Below, one piece after another: positions 32,668-41,806 of a stretch of DNA of 41,806 nt. The notes beneath the pieces are model-generated. The model was not told the origin of the DNA, did not search any database, and was given only the letters and a program-made list of their open reading frames with translations. The stretch covers positions 1 to 41,806 of the forward strand of contig JAAYVH010000087.1 of the NCBI GenBank assembly GCA_012517255.1, in the 5' to 3' direction. Origin of the DNA: Chthonomonadales bacterium (GTDB taxonomy: Bacteria; Armatimonadota; Chthonomonadetes; Chthonomonadales; CAJBBX01). The first letter of the stretch is position 1; each line of letters opens with the position of its first letter. The translations under genes and the position numbers were made by a program.

Positions 32668-35600
32668 CTACTGAATCGGGATGAAGAGCGCAACGCGCAC
32701 AACATGGACCGGACCGCCGCTGAAAGAGAGACGGAAGTCGGCGCCGTTGCAGTTGTCCTCGAAACGCGGATCCGGCAGAGAAAAAACGGCGGTACGCCGC
32801 CTGCCTGAGTTGGTCAGTGATACGGGTGCGGCAGCGTCCTTGAAGGCTCCGGGAATCTCGCTCTTGCGGACCGCCTCATCGAGCGAGTCGTAGTGCAGCT
32901 CCATCGAAGCACGGCCGATGTCGAGATACTCAACGGCCACGAAGACCGGCTTGCCACGGACTCGCTTCGCCGTTTCGGGCAGCACGTCAAAGTAGGTGAA
33001 CTGCTGGGGTTGCCCGTTGGGCGCCAGGCCCGGCGTGAGGCACCACGTGCTGCCGATCTGCTTCCGCGCCGATGCGCCTTCGTCGGGATTGTCCTTGTTA
33101 CGCAGGCCGTCTTCGTCATCAGGCCGCCCCGCCGCGAACAACGCCGTGGTCTGCCCGACAACCCGCTGCTCCCATCGGTCCGCGTCATCCTCCTCCAATG
33201 CGATGGGCCCCGGCGTGCGTCGTACTGCCCGGCCGCCAACACGCTCCTCCACGGCGAACTGCACGATGCCGATGGGCTCCGCTTCGGCGGCCATGGCCTC
33301 GGGACTCAGCGATACAGGCACGATGCGCCAGACATCAGACACGAACCGCCCGATGCCGGTCGCGCGCCCGATATGCACCCCGATGAGGTTGCCGTCCTCC
33401 GCGGTGAAATACGGCGCAGGTTCGTTACGATCCGGGCGCAGATCGAGCGCGACAATGGCCAGCTCGCCCTGGCGGGCCCATGAGCCGTGCTCGCCCTGCT
33501 GTCCGCCTGACTTTCCAGGCCGAGGCTCCGCCGGCGCGTACCGGACCTCCATGGGCCGGGTCCATCGCGTATCGGGGTCGGTGATCGTGTAGGCCACCCA
33601 GTTATCGGCCCGCATATCATCGGCATACAGGCGCACGTACCACTCGGCCACGCCCTTGACGCCCGCCGCCCGTGACCCGGCTGTGCCGACGCCTGCGAAC
33701 GACACCGCCGTTCCCGCGCCATAGATGCGCAGATTGCCGAACCGGACAGTCGTCGCCAGCGGTCCGCTGTCCACAACCTCCACCGTCGCATCGTCGGTCT
33801 GGAGCGCCCCGAAGTCGTACCAGGTCACGTTGTCCTGACAGGCGCACAGATGGGCGAAGCCTGCATCGTGGCCCGTCGGACCCAGCCAGTTCGGGCCTCG
33901 CTCAGGACCGAGCTCCATCATTCGCGGTCCAATGCCTTTGCCGGACAGATCGAACGCCATGCGGAGCTTGCCGTTGCTGAGGATGGCCCGCGGCCCCTCG
34001 CGCGTGAAGCGAACGGATCCGCCCGGCATTTGTCTCTTGCTGCCGGCTCTGGCTGGACCGAAGTAGACGGCAATGGTCTGTGCGCTGCGCGGCTTCGGCA
34101 GGCGGAGCAACAGGTCACCCCGTGACGGGTCCGATGCGCTGTCCGGACAGAACTGCGCCGCAATGCGAGTCGGCTTCGCGTATCCGGCGCCGATGGCATA
34201 GGCCTCGACGCTGTCGGGGTCGGGCTCCTTCTGAATGCCGACCTGCCGCAGCAGAACTCGGAGATCCTGACGAACGCGCACTACCCGCGCCATCGAGGCC
34301 CCCAGCGGCGCATCGAGCTGCACGATGAACCGGTAGGGCAGGCCAGACGTCCACGGATACGCTGCGGGGACGTGCTTGGTTGGCTGCTGGATGCTGCGAT
34401 ACGCATGAAGCTTGCGAAGGCTTGCTTGCTTCGCGCGGAGAGCGGCGATTGCATCGCGCGCAACCGGAGTTCGGGCTGATACCACCCCGAAAAGCAAACT
34501 GCTGCCCTGAAGCGTGAGGCTTCGAATGCTCTTGCCGGCCTTGCCGACCGCGAACGCTCGCAGCCACCATTCCTTGTCGTACCATTCCATGCCGCGACTG
34601 ATCTCGACGCCGTCCTCGTAGTTCACCACGACCGTCTCCGACGTGCCGTCGCGGTAGTCGATCGAACACCGGGCGACGCGGGTGCCGCCGAACACGGGCC
34701 TGGGCGCCCTGGTCTCGCCCAGGATGATCACGCATGGCCCGCCTTCCGCCACCGGAACCGAGACTGGCTCGGCCATGCCCACCGCGCCCCGTCCTTCGTT
34801 GACGCTTGGATCCATCAGCGTGAAGTGGATGCGCGAAGCCACCCGCGGGCCGGGCACCAAGCCGCCCCACGGGCCTGACCAGCGATTGTCCACCGCTACC
34901 GTGGGCGCAGCGCCTCGACGCATCCCGGCTGCCTCTTTGCGCCGCACGATCGCGGCCTGCCGGCGAAGGTCTATCTGAAGCCAGTCCGGCGTCGGCGCAG
35001 GATGAAACGCCCGGCGCTCGGGCAGGATGGCCTCGGTCGGGCCCGGTTCCCGTTGTCCGCCGGCTCCCGGATCACCAATCGTCACCACATCGCCCACGCG
35101 TACGCCGCGGATCAGGGCGTTGACGCCGTCAGAGCCGATCACATAGCGCTGTTCGTCCAACGGTTGCCCGTTGATGCGGACGGCCTTGCCCAGAATCCCC
35201 TCGTGGGGGCTCGTGACCATGATGTCGAAGGGATCGGTCGGGACCTCGGCAGACGGCCCGATCGCAACAACCCGAAACCGGTAGTTGGCAGGCCGCGCAT
35301 AGGCGAACTCATCCACGTCGAGCGCACGCGTCCCTTTGCAGAATGCCAGCGCAGCCCTGGGACCGACATCAACCTGCAGAATGGCGCTGCCCAGTGGCTC
35401 AGCCAGCCATCGGAAGTTGTTCGCGCCCCATCCGCCTGACATGCCGCCGCCCTTGAAGACCAGCAGGTTCTCGGTGTAGTGACCGGCGGCGTTGATGGTG
35501 CCGATGTAGTACCGCTCGAGGCACCCGCGCACGAGGTACTTCAGGAGCGGGTCGCCTGTCTCGAGGTACATGCGGATCCACATCTCGGGCACGCGGCCCA

Positions 35601-37332
35601 TCTCGCCCCACGTCACCGCGCCGATCCAGTAGGCGCTGTTGACGGCCTGAAGCAGGAAGCTGGGGTCGAGGCTGTCGCCGTCCATCGGATCGCCGAGATA
35701 GGGGTAACTGTTGCGATAGACGATCATCTCGGCCAGTCGCCATGCCTCTTCAGCAAGCTGGCCTCGTTCCGGGTCGTCGCGGAAGGTGTAGTAGTAGTCC
35801 AACAGGAACTCGCCGCCGTTTGCCGCTCCCATGGAGAACACAGCCCACGGCAGATCGGCCATACCGGCACGGTCATAGAGGCAGTGCCGGGTCCACTTCA
35901 CCATGCCGTCTATGTACTTCAGGTACCGCTGATCGCGCTCGGAACGGTAGAACCAGAGCATGGCGGACGCGATGCCCCAGTTGAACATGTGGCGCGTGCC
36001 GGTGGCGTTCGCGCCGCCCAGACCTGCCTTGAACTGCCCATGAAGCGGATGCTTCCATACGTAGCAGACATCGTCGCCGTACCGCTCCTCGACGGCCTCA
36101 GGCATGAGCATCTCGATCTGCCGCTTGAGCTCGGCGAGTCCTGCCGAATCGCCCACGGAGAAGGCATAGCGGCACGCCTTGCCGGTCTGATGCGCGATCA
36201 GTTGAACCGCGCCGGGATCGAAGAACGCCTTCTCGCAGCGTTCGTAGGGCACCAGCAAGATAGGCGCGACGCCCTGAGTAGGGTACGTCTTGGCGAGACC
36301 GAGATCGTGCAGGAATCGCGTCTGCGACGCTTCCAGACCCTGCTTGAGCCACGCCATGTCGTTCATGCGCGGCGCCGGCGGAAGACTGTCGCGATACCGG
36401 CTCGTCAGGGATCGGAGCACGAACCGATTGGGATCGTCATGGGAGGGAAGGTCGGTGTGATACAGGATGCGGAACGTCGTCGCAACGGTGACAGGCCCTT
36501 CGGGGAGCCTCAGGCGCATCCAGTCTTCGGCATACGGCCATGATAGGCAGAAGAACTGCCCTGGGTGATCCTCGAGCCTTGCGCAGTAGCTTGATGCGAC
36601 GTACTTCGCCCACCGATCCGAGAACAGCGTCTCGCCGAACTCGTAGGCCACAAAGAGGCGGCTCTGCGGGGACCACAGGCCCACCGCAGGCACAGGCGCA
36701 GCGCCCATGGCGGGAGCATAGCTCCAGTTGTCGCACCAGTCCCCCCTCATCGGCCCCATGGTTATGGGATAGGGATCAATGGATGGCCCGGGATAGAGGA
36801 TGCTGTGCTGATAGAACATCTGCCCCTGATCGGCATCAGCCGGCAGCGAACAGCGCAGGAAGTAAACCGGGCTCAGATTGCGCCACGCTGACCGCCAGCG
36901 TTCCTCGTCGAAACGCTTCATCACCAGACGAAAGCTAACCTCAGGCCAGGGATCGCCCGCCGTAAGGGCAACCGTGACCGTCGTATCGGGGCCGAGTTCG
37001 GGCGTGCCCGTCCCCGGCGTGTCGAATCCTGTGAAGTGCAGGGCCTTGCCGTCGGCCCTCACGCCGGTGCATGTCCATCTCCCGCCCGACGACCAGCGCA
37101 CTTCCGCAACCGGCTTCCATCCGTCGCGACTCTGCGCAGCCAGGTCGAAGCCTACGCAGACGTCGTCGTGACGGATCGCCCTTACCCGCGTATGGTCGTT
37201 GGCGATTTCCTGGGCAGCGCATCGTACAGCCAGCGCGCAGGCACAGGCTAGAAGGAGCAACCGGCAGGCGGCAGCTACCCGTGAGCGAACCTGATCGCGA
37301 CGCTTCGCGTGGCAACGGTTGATGTCACTCAT
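32668..37332 (-). CDS. Giant secreted protein of unknown function (1554 residues)
   Basis: The longest gene in the window. It has a signal peptide (LLLLACACALAVRCAAQ, about 24-41). Residues about 45-330 look beta-rich. About 435-665 form a helical repeat with (alpha/alpha)-barrel character: HMFNWGIASAMLWFYRS, LPWAVFSMGAANGGEFLLDYYY, and SAYWIGAVTWGEMG. About 700-1430 is mostly beta, with Trp/Gly-rich segments. The last about 115 residues resemble a carbohydrate-binding-type beta domain (FVAVEYLDIG, HYDSLDEAVR, GADFRLSF). I do not recognise the family. An extracellular polysaccharide-active or binding role is inferred from the fold and the GH5-like neighbour. AAGGAG six bases before ATG fixes the start. 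Confidence 0.85.
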   Translation of the reverse strand: MSDINRCHAKRRDQVRSRVAAACRLLLLACACALAVRCAAQEIANDHTRVRAIRHDDVCVGFDLAAQSRDGWKPVAEVRWSSGGRWTCTGVRADGKALHFTGFDTPGTGTPELGPDTTVTVALTAGDPWPEVSFRLVMKRFDEERWRSAWRNLSPVYFLRCSLPADADQGQMFYQHSILYPGPSIDPYPITMGPMRGDWCDNWSYAPAMGAAPVPAVGLWSPQSRLFVAYEFGETLFSDRWAKYVASSYCARLEDHPGQFFCLSWPYAEDWMRLRLPEGPVTVATTFRILYHTDLPSHDDPNRFVLRSLTSRYRDSLPPAPRMNDMAWLKQGLEASQTRFLHDLGLAKTYPTQGVAPILLVPYERCEKAFFDPGAVQLIAHQTGKACRYAFSVGDSAGLAELKRQIEMLMPEAVEERYGDDVCYVWKHPLHGQFKAGLGGANATGTRHMFNWGIASAMLWFYRSERDQRYLKYIDGMVKWTRHCLYDRAGMADLPWAVFSMGAANGGEFLLDYYYTFRDDPERGQLAEEAWRLAEMIVYRNSYPYLGDPMDGDSLDPSFLLQAVNSAYWIGAVTWGEMGRVPEMWIRMYLETGDPLLKYLVRGCLERYYIGTINAAGHYTENLLVFKGGGMSGGWGANNFRWLAEPLGSAILQVDVGPRAALAFCKGTRALDVDEFAYARPANYRFRVVAIGPSAEVPTDPFDIMVTSPHEGILGKAVRINGQPLDEQRYVIGSDGVNALIRGVRVGDVVTIGDPGAGGQREPGPTEAILPERRAFHPAPTPDWLQIDLRRQAAIVRRKEAAGMRRGAAPTVAVDNRWSGPWGGLVPGPRVASRIHFTLMDPSVNEGRGAVGMAEPVSVPVAEGGPCVIILGETRAPRPVFGGTRVARCSIDYRDGTSETVVVNYEDGVEISRGMEWYDKEWWLRAFAVGKAGKSIRSLTLQGSSLLFGVVSARTPVARDAIAALRAKQASLRKLHAYRSIQQPTKHVPAAYPWTSGLPYRFIVQLDAPLGASMARVVRVRQDLRVLLRQVGIQKEPDPDSVEAYAIGAGYAKPTRIAAQFCPDSASDPSRGDLLLRLPKPRSAQTIAVYFGPARAGSKRQMPGGSVRFTREGPRAILSNGKLRMAFDLSGKGIGPRMMELGPERGPNWLGPTGHDAGFAHLCACQDNVTWYDFGALQTDDATVEVVDSGPLATTVRFGNLRIYGAGTAVSFAGVGTAGSRAAGVKGVAEWYVRLYADDMRADNWVAYTITDPDTRWTRPMEVRYAPAEPRPGKSGGQQGEHGSWARQGELAIVALDLRPDRNEPAPYFTAEDGNLIGVHIGRATGIGRFVSDVWRIVPVSLSPEAMAAEAEPIGIVQFAVEERVGGRAVRRTPGPIALEEDDADRWEQRVVGQTTALFAAGRPDDEDGLRNKDNPDEGASARKQIGSTWCLTPGLAPNGQPQQFTYFDVLPETAKRVRGKPVFVAVEYLDIGRASMELHYDSLDEAVRKSEIPGAFKDAAAPVSLTNSGRRRTAVFSLPDPRFEDNCNGADFRLSFSGGPVHVVRVALFIPIQ

Positions 37333-37358: not shown

Positions 37359-38915
37359 CTACTCGTTCGAGAGGAACGCCCGGATCCGCTCGGCAATGGC
37401 GTCGGCATCTCTCAGGAGCGGCGTATCGGTTCCGGCCGTGCGAACTGCATCAGAGGCGTTGGCCTCACGACGGAAGGCCTCGATGGCGTCGAGAGTGGCC
37501 CTGGCGGCTGCGCGGGCCTCATCCTTGCGTCCCATCTCCGCAAGGATGTCGAACCGTGCCGACAGCGCGCGGAATCGCTGCCGCACGTCGGCCACGGCGG
37601 CCCAACGCTCTGCGGTTTCGGCTGCGGCGACCAGATCGCCAGTCTGACGGCGCACCTGGGTCAGCATCCGCAGCGCCTCCGATGCCACCCTCTGACCGGG
37701 TTGCGCTCGCAGCGCGGACTCGCACGCTTCGGCTGCCGCGCCCATGTCGCCAAGGTCCACATACTCCCGAGCCATTCGAACCAGCATCCCCGGGGCATGC
37801 GGTCCGTTCGGATAGGCACCAACCGCCGTCTTGAACACGGCTATGCGCTCCGCCGGAGTCTGCGCATGCTGACCGACGAGACGCGTGTAGAGCTCCGCGA
37901 TGTTCGATCCCCAGATGCTGCGCGTGCGCCTTCTCATGAGGTTCTCGACGTCTCGCCGGTGCCGTGCCGTGTTGCCATACACGTCGGCGTCCTCCCCTGC
38001 CGCAAGGCGCCACGTGTTCGGGATCTCCCCCACGTACGCGGCGAATGCCGGGCCAAAGAGCCATCGGACCGGCAGCGGACCGAACGGCCCAAGCTGTTGC
38101 CGTATCCATGCCGTGTCGTCGGGATAGAGGTCGGCCCGATGGGCATAGAGGTAGCCCACCTTGAGCGCTGCGCCCGATGCGGCATAGAGGATGGGAATGG
38201 CGAGTGCGGTCGCCAGAGCCCGACGGCGCTGGCGTGAGGACGCCTGCGAACCCAGCGTGAAGATCAGCCGCCTGTGATAGAGATACAGCGCAGCTGCGAG
38301 GCAGAGCAAGATGGCTTTCGCATGCCAGGGGTAGCGCGTGAACACCGTCGTGCGGTGGACCGCCTCCGACACCATCGAATCGGACACGGTCTGCAGAGAG
38401 AGAAACGGCTGGATCGCCACGCCCGGCGCAAGATCCATGGCCCACCACGCTGCAGCGACCGCGAACCCGGCCCACGCGTTCCTGAACAGCGTGGCGAACG
38501 TGAGCGCGAGAAGGGCCATGAACAACGTCGACGGGATGCACGCGAGCGCCGCCGGCGCGATGGGATACGGCTCCCACCCGTAGTAGAACGCCGCCAGCGA
38601 CAACGCGGCAAGCGCCCAGACGAGCGCCATGACCACAATCAGCCGGATCAGCACCACCTTGGCAATGTCCACCGGCTTGGACGCGAGTATGGCGCCGATG
38701 CCGCTCCTGTACTCGGCGCTGAGCAAGTGCGCGCTCAGGAATGCCGCCAGCAAGGGGGGCGTCGTCTCCACCACATGCGCGGGTAGATTCTCGTTGAACC
38801 GCAGCGTGATCAGGTTCCAGAAGACCACAAGCTGGCTCGCCGCGATGGGAAAGACCAGCAGCCACCAGTTGCGGAACATAACGACTCGGAAGTTATAGCG
38901 GAGCAGACGGATCAT
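37359..38915 (-). CDS. ABC-2-type permease fused to a TPR-like helical domain
   Basis: Protein of 518 residues. The first about 255 form an ABC-2-type membrane domain: segments near 18-37, 87-111, 120-142, 147-165, 199-214 and 233-255, with the typical LSAEYRSGIGAILASKPV after the first segments. Residues about 340-480 are a soluble helical array with TPR-like pairs (PNGPHAPGMLVRMAREYVDLGD; GDLVAAAETAERWAAVAD). The ATG overlaps the stop of the preceding permease as ATGA. The pair presumably forms a heterodimeric channel with the ATPase. A TPR tail on an ABC-2 subunit is unusual and may recruit a partner protein. Confidence 0.82.
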   Translation of the reverse strand: MIRLLRYNFRVVMFRNWWLLVFPIAASQLVVFWNLITLRFNENLPAHVVETTPPLLAAFLSAHLLSAEYRSGIGAILASKPVDIAKVVLIRLIVVMALVWALAALSLAAFYYGWEPYPIAPAALACIPSTLFMALLALTFATLFRNAWAGFAVAAAWWAMDLAPGVAIQPFLSLQTVSDSMVSEAVHRTTVFTRYPWHAKAILLCLAAALYLYHRRLIFTLGSQASSRQRRRALATALAIPILYAASGAALKVGYLYAHRADLYPDDTAWIRQQLGPFGPLPVRWLFGPAFAAYVGEIPNTWRLAAGEDADVYGNTARHRRDVENLMRRRTRSIWGSNIAELYTRLVGQHAQTPAERIAVFKTAVGAYPNGPHAPGMLVRMAREYVDLGDMGAAAEACESALRAQPGQRVASEALRMLTQVRRQTGDLVAAAETAERWAAVADVRQRFRALSARFDILAEMGRKDEARAAARATLDAIEAFRREANASDAVRTAGTDTPLLRDADAIAERIRAFLSNE

Positions 38916-40198
38916 CGTGGCTCCTCCGCGATGCGCTGCAATACCGACTGCAAGAGCCGAGGTCCGTCATAGGTCGAGATGCCCTCGATCATGTCCCGGA
39001 TGCGTCTGCGGCGGTCCGTCACGACGACGAACGGCATGTCCGTTACGCGATACGCCCCCGCCACCGGCGACGCATCGGCAGCCCTCGGGGCGTGATGCGA
39101 CCCCCAATCGGTTAGCACGGGGAAGCGCACCCCCTCGCCGCGAGCCAGTGTCGCTCCGGCTCCGGTATCGTTGGAAATGCAGACCGCCACGGGAAGCACG
39201 CCGAAGCGCCCATAGGCGCGATGCAATGCTCGCATCCTGCCGAGGAGCAGCGCGCCCTCCTCCGAATGAGGGTCCAGCAGCCCGACGACAAACACCTTTC
39301 CGGGTGCATCCGCGAGCGAAAACAGCCGACCGTGTTGGTCGGGCAACAGGAAACCGGGAGCGACTCCCTCGACAACGGCGTCCTGGCGGGCGATCTCCGC
39401 CATCAGAGGCGACTCCCGCATCAGCGGATCATGGCCGTCGCGCACCGTAATCCATGAGGCCCACAGAGCGATTGCCAACCCGGCCGGCGGCAGGACCCGA
39501 CACCACAGGGCTGGAACGCTCAGTCCCCGTCGCGATGGCCGGTAGAAGCGCGCGGCAAAACCGACAAAGAACAAGCCAAGGGCCGCGAACGCAAGCAGAT
39601 TCTGCGTGTAGTAGGGATAGTAGACCTTGGCGAGGAAGGCCTGTCCCGCCATGGTAACCACCCAGTAGAGCCCCACCAATGCGCCCGCTAGCGGCGTGTC
39701 TGCAATGAGCGCAAGGGCGTAGGCCGCGCTTGACGCGAAGAACAGTACGATGGCGGCGCGCCCAAACTGCGTCACGAATGCCGTCGCGCCCATCAAGGTG
39801 CCGGAATGAAACCAGCGGGAGATCAGCGCCCCGAAGAACAGCGCCGACAACAGGAGCAGCAACTGCAGATATGCCCCCACGTATCGAGCCGCGACCAGCC
39901 GCTCTGTCGTCTGAGGTTTGGACCAGACCATCGCAGTCGCGCCCAGCGCAGTGTCGCGAGCCGCCGTCATGGAGAGGAAGTAGACCGCCACAAAGGCCAG
40001 ATAGGTGCATGCGGCATCGCCTGTGGTGATCGCTGCCAGTCCCGCGCCTCCGCCGCCGGCGCGACCAAGGAACCACCCCGCCAGAAGAGCTGCGAACACC
40101 GCGACGCGCTGTGCCGTGCCGCCCAACGCGATGCGCGCTTCGGCCCGGGCGAGCGCATAGAGCGGAGCGCGGCCTGACGCCGATGATGCGTCAGTCAT
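38912..40198 (-). CDS. ABC-2-type permease fused to a cysteine-less thioredoxin-fold domain
   Basis: Protein of 428 residues. Residues 1-255 hold about six membrane segments (30-47, 58-80, 105-125, 146-168, about 172-190, 200-217, 235-252). From about 273 on there is a redoxin/TlpA-like domain: VAPGFLLPDQHGRLFSLAD (279-297), the strand KVFVVGLLDPHSEEGALLLGRMRALH, and the cis-Pro MPFVVV (388-393). At the CxxC position the sequence is DPHS, so no redox cysteines are present. ATG 40198 has GGAGAGG upstream. It lies 99 bases after the ATPase gene. Its partner permease is coupled by ATGA. Confidence 0.85.
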   Translation of the reverse strand: MTDASSASGRAPLYALARAEARIALGGTAQRVAVFAALLAGWFLGRAGGGGAGLAAITTGDAACTYLAFVAVYFLSMTAARDTALGATAMVWSKPQTTERLVAARYVGAYLQLLLLLSALFFGALISRWFHSGTLMGATAFVTQFGRAAIVLFFASSAAYALALIADTPLAGALVGLYWVVTMAGQAFLAKVYYPYYTQNLLAFAALGLFFVGFAARFYRPSRRGLSVPALWCRVLPPAGLAIALWASWITVRDGHDPLMRESPLMAEIARQDAVVEGVAPGFLLPDQHGRLFSLADAPGKVFVVGLLDPHSEEGALLLGRMRALHRAYGRFGVLPVAVCISNDTGAGATLARGEGVRFPVLTDWGSHHAPRAADASPVAGAYRVTDMPFVVVTDRRRRIRDMIEGISTYDGPRLLQSVLQRIAEEPR

Positions 40199-40297: not shown

Positions 40298-41179
40298 TCA
40301 GTTCGTCGCCGGAGCCGCGTGCATCAAGCCGATATAGGCGTCGTCCATCGTCGGCTCAACCGGCGTCGCCTCTCGGCCATCCACCTGATCGGCAATGATG
40401 CGCACCGTAATATGATCGCCTGTGCGCTGGAGCGCAGTCTCGACGTATTGTCCTCGGATGGCCGCCAGTTCGGGCCCAGTAGCCTGAACTTCCCAGACGC
40501 GGCCGCGCACCGCCGTTCGCATGTCATCGGGAGTACCCGTGAATCGGATGCGACCTTCATGAAGCACCGCAACGGTGTCCGCGATGGCTGCCACATCCTC
40601 GATGAGATGCGTCGAGAGGATCACCACCCTGTCCTGTCCCAGCTCGGTTAGCATGGACCGGACGCGGATACGCTCCTCGGGGTCGAGGCCGGCCGTCGGC
40701 TCATCCACGATCAGCAGCCTGGGTTCGTTGAGCAATGCCTGAGCAAGGCCGACACGCTGCCGCATGCCGCCTGACAGGTGCGCGATAGCCCGGTCGCGCA
40801 CGTCCATCAGATTGACGCGCGCCATGGCGTCCTCGATGCGCCGCGTCCGCTCCGCGGTGTCTTTGATGTTGTAGAGCAGACCGATGTAATCGAGCGTCTC
40901 GAACACGCTCAGCGACGGATACAGCCCGAAGTCCTGCGGCAAGTAGCCCAGGAGGGAGCGCACCTGATGCTTCTCTCGCCGTATGTCGTGGCCGCCCACA
41001 CGGGCCGTGCCGCGCGTGGGCTCCAGCAGGGTTGTCAGCATGGACATCAGCGTGCTCTTTCCTGCGCCATTCGGTCCGAGAAGGGCGAAGATGCCCTGCC
41101 CGATGGTCAGGGTAGTCTCATAGAGGCCAACGACACCGCCCTCGTAGTCCTTCCGCAGGCCGTCAATCTCGATGTTCAG
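40298..41179 (-). CDS. ABC transporter ATPase, starting with CTG
   Basis: ABC-2-type exporter ATPase, 293 residues. Walker A GPNGAGKST is at 35-43, Q-loop Gln82, signature LSGGM at 135-139, Walker B LLIVDEP at 155-161 and H-loop His191; the domain is complete. It powers the two fused permeases downstream. No ATG, GTG or TTG lies between an in-frame TGA (41194-41192) and residue 45, which is already past Walker A. The only start that gives a whole domain is CTG 41179, with AAGGAGG exactly six bases upstream and overlapping the previous stop as CTGA. Confidence 0.92.
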   Translation of the reverse strand: MNIEIDGLRKDYEGGVVGLYETTLTIGQGIFALLGPNGAGKSTLMSMLTTLLEPTRGTARVGGHDIRREKHQVRSLLGYLPQDFGLYPSLSVFETLDYIGLLYNIKDTAERTRRIEDAMARVNLMDVRDRAIAHLSGGMRQRVGLAQALLNEPRLLIVDEPTAGLDPEERIRVRSMLTELGQDRVVILSTHLIEDVAAIADTVAVLHEGRIRFTGTPDDMRTAVRGRVWEVQATGPELAAIRGQYVETALQRTGDHITVRIIADQVDGREATPVEPTMDDAYIGLMHAAPATN

Positions 41180-41806
41180 CTTCCCCCTCCTTCAGCAAGC
41201 TTCCTCGTGCCCTTGCTTGGATCCATCCCTCCGGCCTGTGCCAGCTCCGGCACAGTCACGCGGCGAATGGCGTTGGCGTCGGTATCAGCGACGATGATGC
41301 GACCACGCGCATCCATGGCAAGACCGCCGATACGCCCGAAGAGAGCCCGATCTCCCGCGAAGTCGCGCCAGCCCCGCATACTGCCGGGGTCCTGGAATCC
41401 GCCGGCGAGCACCTGTGCAGTCCCGTCACGTATCCACAGGAGCGCGCCCTGGGTCGCGTCCGCGGCGATGTATCCGCCCGCAGGGCTCGGCAGTATCGCG
41501 CCGGGGTGTTTGAGCGGCATAGCGTCCATGCCAACCGTAACGGGCGGCATCCCGGTTCCATTGACGAGGATCACTCCGGCGTCCGGGGCCGATGCAATGA
41601 AGGGACTGGCCCCTGTGACCCAGACCGGAGCAGCCTGCATAGGCGTTCCGGCGTCCGCGACGCCATTCAGCGTAACGCGCCTGATGCGCCGGTTGCCGGC
41701 ATCCGCCACCCACAGCCCGGGGGTCGGCAGCGCGGTGAAGCAGAGCGACACGGGCGTATGGAATCGGGCTGCATTGCCCGCGCCCGCTGCGAAGCCCATA
41801 TGGCCG
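41176..41806 (-). CDS. NHL-repeat-like beta-propeller protein, C-terminal part (cut by right window edge)
   Basis: The frame runs off the right edge; the last 209 residues are visible. They contain NHL-type blade motifs: PGLWVADAGNRRIRRVTLNG, GGLAMDARGRIIVADTDANAIRRVT, and GGYIAADATQGALLWIRDG. Such propellers usually bind proteins or glycans outside the cell or in the periplasm, and signal-sequence information is outside the window. The stop overlaps the CTG of the ATPase (CTGA). It appears to be the gene before, or the first of, the ABC locus, and an in-frame ATG at 41799 is not evidence of the true start. Confidence 0.75.
   Translation of the reverse strand, partial: GHMGFAAGAGNAARFHTPVSLCFTALPTPGLWVADAGNRRIRRVTLNGVADAGTPMQAAPVWVTGASPFIASAPDAGVILVNGTGMPPVTVGMDAMPLKHPGAILPSPAGGYIAADATQGALLWIRDGTAQVLAGGFQDPGSMRGWRDFAGDRALFGRIGGLAMDARGRIIVADTDANAIRRVTVPELAQAGGMDPSKGTRKLAEGGGS
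41177..41192 (-). promoter_or_regulatory. Ribosome binding site and CTG start of the ABC ATPase
   Basis: AAGGAGG (41192-41186), a full match to the 16S 3' end, is followed after GGGAAG by CTG (41179-41177). The preceding gene ends with TGA at 41178-41176. This is the strongest ribosome binding site in the locus and supports initiation at CTG. Confidence 0.7.

Follow-up and report, generated by a model that had tools for sequence, protein, structure and literature searches.

Organization of the Locus

The window, by which we mean the entire 41,806-nucleotide stretch of the Chthonomonadales contig that was analysed, contains part of a five-gene cassette on the minus strand. In gene order, the cassette encodes a transmembrane (TM)-anchored propeller-like protein, a TM-anchored NHL β-propeller protein, an ABC ATPase, an ABC-2-like permease with a C-terminal thioredoxin fold lacking the active-site cysteines (permease-Trx), and a second permease with a C-terminal TPR domain (permease-TPR). 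It is incomplete in the window because the end of the contig cuts through the NHL gene and leaves only its C-terminal part (41176..41805, minus). The N-terminal part was located on another contig of the same genome (G000:C252, locus L145), where it reaches the contig end, and the fifth gene, which encodes the propeller-like protein, lies directly upstream of it (L145 4681-5721).

The permease-Trx gene (38912..40198, minus) is an open reading frame of 428 residues, and its stop codon overlaps the start of permease-TPR (37359..38915, minus, 518 residues) in the sequence ATGA. The ATPase gene (40298..41179, minus) likely starts at a CTG codon that overlaps the NHL stop codon (CTGA, 41176-41182, minus) and lies downstream of the GGAGGGGG stretch. 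Stop/start overlaps of this kind fit an operon. The ATPase contains all of the expected motifs (Walker A, Q-loop, signature, Walker B, and H-loop), and no ATG, GTG, or TTG codon is present upstream of its Walker A motif. Downstream of the cassette is a gene (32668-37332, minus) whose product of 1554 residues has no Pfam match at E values up to 1. In a genome of the same genus (L021) the cassette is likewise followed by a copy, 73% identical; the remaining cassette loci that were inspected yielded none.

A Permease Fused to a Thioredoxin Fold

The initial annotation described permease-Trx as a membrane half followed by a redoxin/TlpA-like domain, and our analysis bears this out. Residues 1-255 (39434..40198) form the membrane part, with seven hydrophobic segments whose family-average peaks fall at positions 38, 71, 118, 157, 174, 210, and 244; the redoxin domain (residues 275-428; 38915..39376) is C-terminal to all of them. 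Since the N-terminus is positively charged and the loop between segments 6 and 7 carries a charge of +3.6, the seven segments are predicted to have an N-in/C-out topology, which would place the thioredoxin fold outside the cytoplasmic membrane. TlpA and ResA likewise act on the outer side of this membrane. The window protein matches Pfam ABC2_membrane_5 at 0.0078, under the cut-off, and among the Pfam and named-system models scanned neither permease of the cassette reached the cut-off of any named family.

When compared with Pfam on its own, the window protein gives sub-threshold matches to Redoxin (7e-4) and AhpC-TSA (9e-4). One relative does exceed the Redoxin cut-off (1.1e-8; 35.5 versus 26.6 bits), and a family profile built from 11 sequences finds ResA structures at 3.9e-11. 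An AlphaFold2 model of permease-Trx (pLDDT 81.4, pTM 0.84) has seven predicted membrane helices, and the best 50 Foldseek matches to it all fall on the thioredoxin domain; the top ones are ResA/DsbE-type structures with an E value of 2.5e-7 and a target-normalised TM-score of up to 0.90. The structure prediction and fold search suggested in the initial annotation thus did not yield a structure unlike thioredoxin, and on the model and profile matches the C-terminal domain is a ResA/TlpA-type thioredoxin fold.

Distribution and Conservation of the Fusion

A profile search of 291 Armatimonadota genomes identified 37 full-length fusions in 35 of them, 34 strong and 3 divergent, all with open frames. 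Other phyla were covered by one narrow scan of a genome collection with a single peptide pattern, in which the named matches belonged to Armatimonadota (including Chthonomonas) or to the lineage Zipacnadia. A search of plasmids gave no match. Recovery of the same open fusion in 35 genomes rules out a sequencing error or a missed stop codon between two separate genes, an explanation that the initial annotation had left to be checked. A partial search of the literature for the fusion, the five-gene cassette, and close analogues returned no description.

In the tree, a branch supported at 98/88 sets the fusions apart, which places them as one clade. The thioredoxin part is under strong purifying selection: its dN/dS ratio is 0.04-0.15 and mostly under the value of the membrane part. 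Synonymous change is near saturation in the two pairs that include the window protein, but for the three pairs with the least divergence the ratio is 0.05-0.07.

The Vacated Active Site

As had been noted for the window protein, the place of the CxxC motif (residues 309-312; 39263..39274, minus) reads DPHS, and the cis-proline is intact (P389; 39032..39034, minus). In the alignment of the fusions P389 is invariant, and not one of the 37 has a cysteine at position 309 or 312. The loss is therefore not peculiar to the window protein, and the question of its generality, raised in the initial annotation, can be answered in the affirmative. As the loss extends to all 37 members of one clade and is accompanied by a low dN/dS, it is fixed, and the thioredoxin domain is constrained. 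P310 occurs in 35 of the fusions, and D364, G366, S377, P378, P310, and P389 are each conserved in at least 32. Conservation of H368 is partial (26/37).

The sole cysteine of the thioredoxin domain in the window protein is Cys340 (39179..39181, minus), which is present in 33 of the 37 fusions. According to the structure model and the profile match, it sits where the strand after the helix that would bear CxxC comes to its end.

As a control set we used the 45 best remaining non-fused redoxin matches in the phylum. CxxC is retained in 29 of these and a peroxidatic-type cysteine is found in 2. As they were picked by similarity to a Cys-less profile, the set is biased toward Cys-less domains, and the contrast with the fusions is conservative. 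The earlier statement that the domain lacks redox chemistry can be upheld in part: an absence of dithiol chemistry is well supported by the alignment, but Cys340 could still serve monothiol or metal chemistry.

Armatimonadota also have TlpA-like domains that lack CxxC and are not fused, at loci L095, L128, L100, L125, L099, and L116; the L116 protein carries one CxxC domain and one Cys-less domain in tandem. In a further cassette with an ATPase and two permeases, divergence of the C-terminal domain has gone further in one permease (L132 692-2110, genome G004). There the active-site place has no cysteine and the cis-proline is apparently gone.

Partner Proteins of the Cassette

The ATPase gene adjoins the fusion at 35 of the 37 loci, and the remaining two are at contig edges. 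A second permease is present at 32 loci and an NHL gene at 30; several of the absences coincide with contig ends. Loci L025 and L075 have no recognisable second permease although they lie inside their contigs. Permease-Trx, viewed by itself in the initial annotation, thus belongs to a conserved system of five genes. Outside these genes, comparison of the partly annotated neighbours among themselves revealed none common to the loci, so that gene context gave no clue to a substrate.

An hhalign comparison shows the two permeases to be related in their membrane parts (E value 1.8e-5), which suggests that they form a heterodimer. The NHL protein consists of an N-terminal TM segment and an NHL propeller, with a Gly-rich linker in many members, and the best solved-structure matches of the propeller profile include SOQ1 and NHLRC2. 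In the cassette the thioredoxin and NHL domains are encoded by separate genes, and no chain in which these domains are fused was found in a small sample from the phylum. The propeller-like protein encoded by the fifth gene has an N-terminal TM segment, as do its homologues, and no match in Pfam; its profile (alignment A5) finds YWTD propellers of the LRP type, with a best E value of 7e-17. Direct comparison with the NHL protein by hhalign gave a probability of 6%, leaving homology between the two unsupported.

Comparison with Known Systems

The thioredoxin domain has its fold, predicted side of the membrane, and cis-proline in common with ResA/TlpA-type proteins (Pfam Redoxin and AhpC-TSA). 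It differs from them in that the catalytic cysteine pair is missing from every fusion and in its attachment to an ABC-2-like permease.

Several ABC systems resemble the cassette in composition. The GldA-GldF-GldG gliding system also has one ATPase and two permeases, one of them with a large outer domain, and the cassette ATPase matches GldA at 8.1e-55. However, its score of 186.4 bits is below the GldA cut-off of 402.6, and no Gld permease model was matched. In NosDFY, an ATPase and an ABC-2 permease act with an extracytoplasmic partner, and NosF is among the solved-structure matches of the cassette ATPase (1.2e-34). The Nos partner, on the other hand, is a β-helix, there is one permease gene instead of two, and no Nos model matched the cassette proteins scanned, permeases included. 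The PQQ-associated system (TIGR03864, Ped-type) combines an ATPase and a permease with a β-propeller protein. The cassette ATPase matches TIGR03864 at 1.9e-48, but with 165 bits against a cut-off of 302.25, and the permeases matched no model of that system. The match of the ATPase to the DrrA model was also below the cut-off. By analogy, then, the cassette resembles multi-part ABC-2 machines such as GldAFG, NosDFY, and the Ped-type system, but the models scanned do not place it in any of them.

NHLRC2 and SOQ1 each combine a Trx-like domain with an NHL propeller in a single chain, and the cassette encodes both side by side. Here, however, they are separate proteins, and the thioredoxin domain resides on an ABC permease. 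The Trx domain of NHLRC2 touches the cup of the propeller with its active-site region, and the cleft between them is lined by conserved residues; no reductase activity of the Trx domain was detected in an insulin assay (PMC6107167). The Trx motif of the NHLRC2/SOQ1 family is CC(I/V)NC, and NHLRC2 retains it as CCINC (PMC6107167), whereas the permease-Trx domain lacks this and any other cysteine motif.

Role of the Thioredoxin Domain

The fusion, its fold, the general loss of cysteines, purifying selection, the predicted topology, and the conservation of the cassette were all obtained by computation. From these features we infer complex formation, the docking partner, and the kind of work done, as follows. 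In the reading that we prefer, to which we assign a probability of roughly 0.45, permease-Trx would pair with permease-TPR as the two halves of an ABC-2-type membrane machine, and its redox-dead thioredoxin fold would serve for docking, with the NHL protein as the probable partner. A single ATPase, probably dimeric, would power the two related seven-TM permeases, which would present different outer domains, the thioredoxin fold on one and TPR repeats on the other. The thioredoxin fold would most likely offer a protein-docking surface through the face formed by the vacated active site and the cis-proline. Its most likely partner is the NHL propeller, comparable to the Trx-like domain packed on the propeller cup of NHLRC2: as the two domains are fused in NHLRC2 and SOQ1, the permease domain would bind in trans to the NHL protein and so link the outer assembly to the ATP-driven permease. 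Movement of the permeases, driven by ATP, would then pass to the outer domains and to the two membrane-anchored extracytoplasmic propeller proteins, so that a substrate is moved or remodelled at the cell surface.

Other explanations are compatible with parts of these data. The presence of outer domains without catalytic function on a membrane ATPase, together with the ligand binding that is common among propeller proteins, could indicate a signal-transducing module in which the outer domains sense an envelope ligand, with the Cys-less thioredoxin fold as sensor, and the permease and ATPase report it. We consider this unlikely, given that no histidine kinase or regulator was recognised among the common neighbours in the comparison described above. 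That the domain is still chemically active through Cys340, by monothiol exchange or by binding a metal, for example in maturation of a metal centre as in NosDFY-type systems, would agree with the prevalence of this cysteine, with its position after the would-be CxxC helix, and with the NosF match of the ATPase. Yet Cys340 is absent from 4 of the 37 fusions, both CxxC positions are empty in all of them, and the conserved histidine is only partial, which makes such chemistry quite unlikely.

With two outer proteins on tethers and two more outer domains fused to the permeases, the cassette might also work like an importer, the thioredoxin fold and propellers binding a small solute while tethered and handing it to the permease. 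This is improbable, as ABC-2-type permeases are mostly exporters and no solute-binding family appears among the domain matches of the cassette proteins. Finally, the loss of catalytic residues, carried further in the L132 relative that seems to lack even the cis-proline, could mean that the domain is a decaying remnant without a role. The low dN/dS, mostly below that of the membrane part, the conserved residues D364, G366, S377, P378, P310, and P389, and the confidently predicted fold make decay very hard to credit.

A binding role at the transporter, as put forward in the initial annotation, is thus the favoured inference, and the loss of cysteines in every relative examined suggests that the thioredoxin domain grips a partner protein rather than performing redox chemistry. 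A catalytic fold of the envelope, as in TlpA and ResA, has apparently been turned into a transporter component without catalysis that is fixed throughout a deep clade; in a bacterial operon it is encoded next to an NHL propeller. More tentatively, the cassette may represent a class of ABC-2 machine without a known description, in which ATP-driven motion would reach a tethered two-propeller assembly through thioredoxin docking and the TPR domain of the partner, with the pairing seen in NHLRC2 and SOQ1 split between proteins. For Armatimonadota the cassette adds a recurrent system, with no description in the part of the literature searched. No molecular role is known for NHLRC2, and bacterial thioredoxin and NHL domains that reside on separate proteins next to an ATP-driven machine could make the contact between the two domains directly testable.

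An exclusive role in docking to the NHL protein is spoken against by a divergent clade (L034, L035, and L092), in which the fusion is present and no NHL gene is adjacent. In this clade (L034 8977-11645; L092 6320-8864) the second permease is limited to its membrane part, and it is the next gene that encodes the TPR part, at L034 together with a CarboxypepD_reg-like domain.
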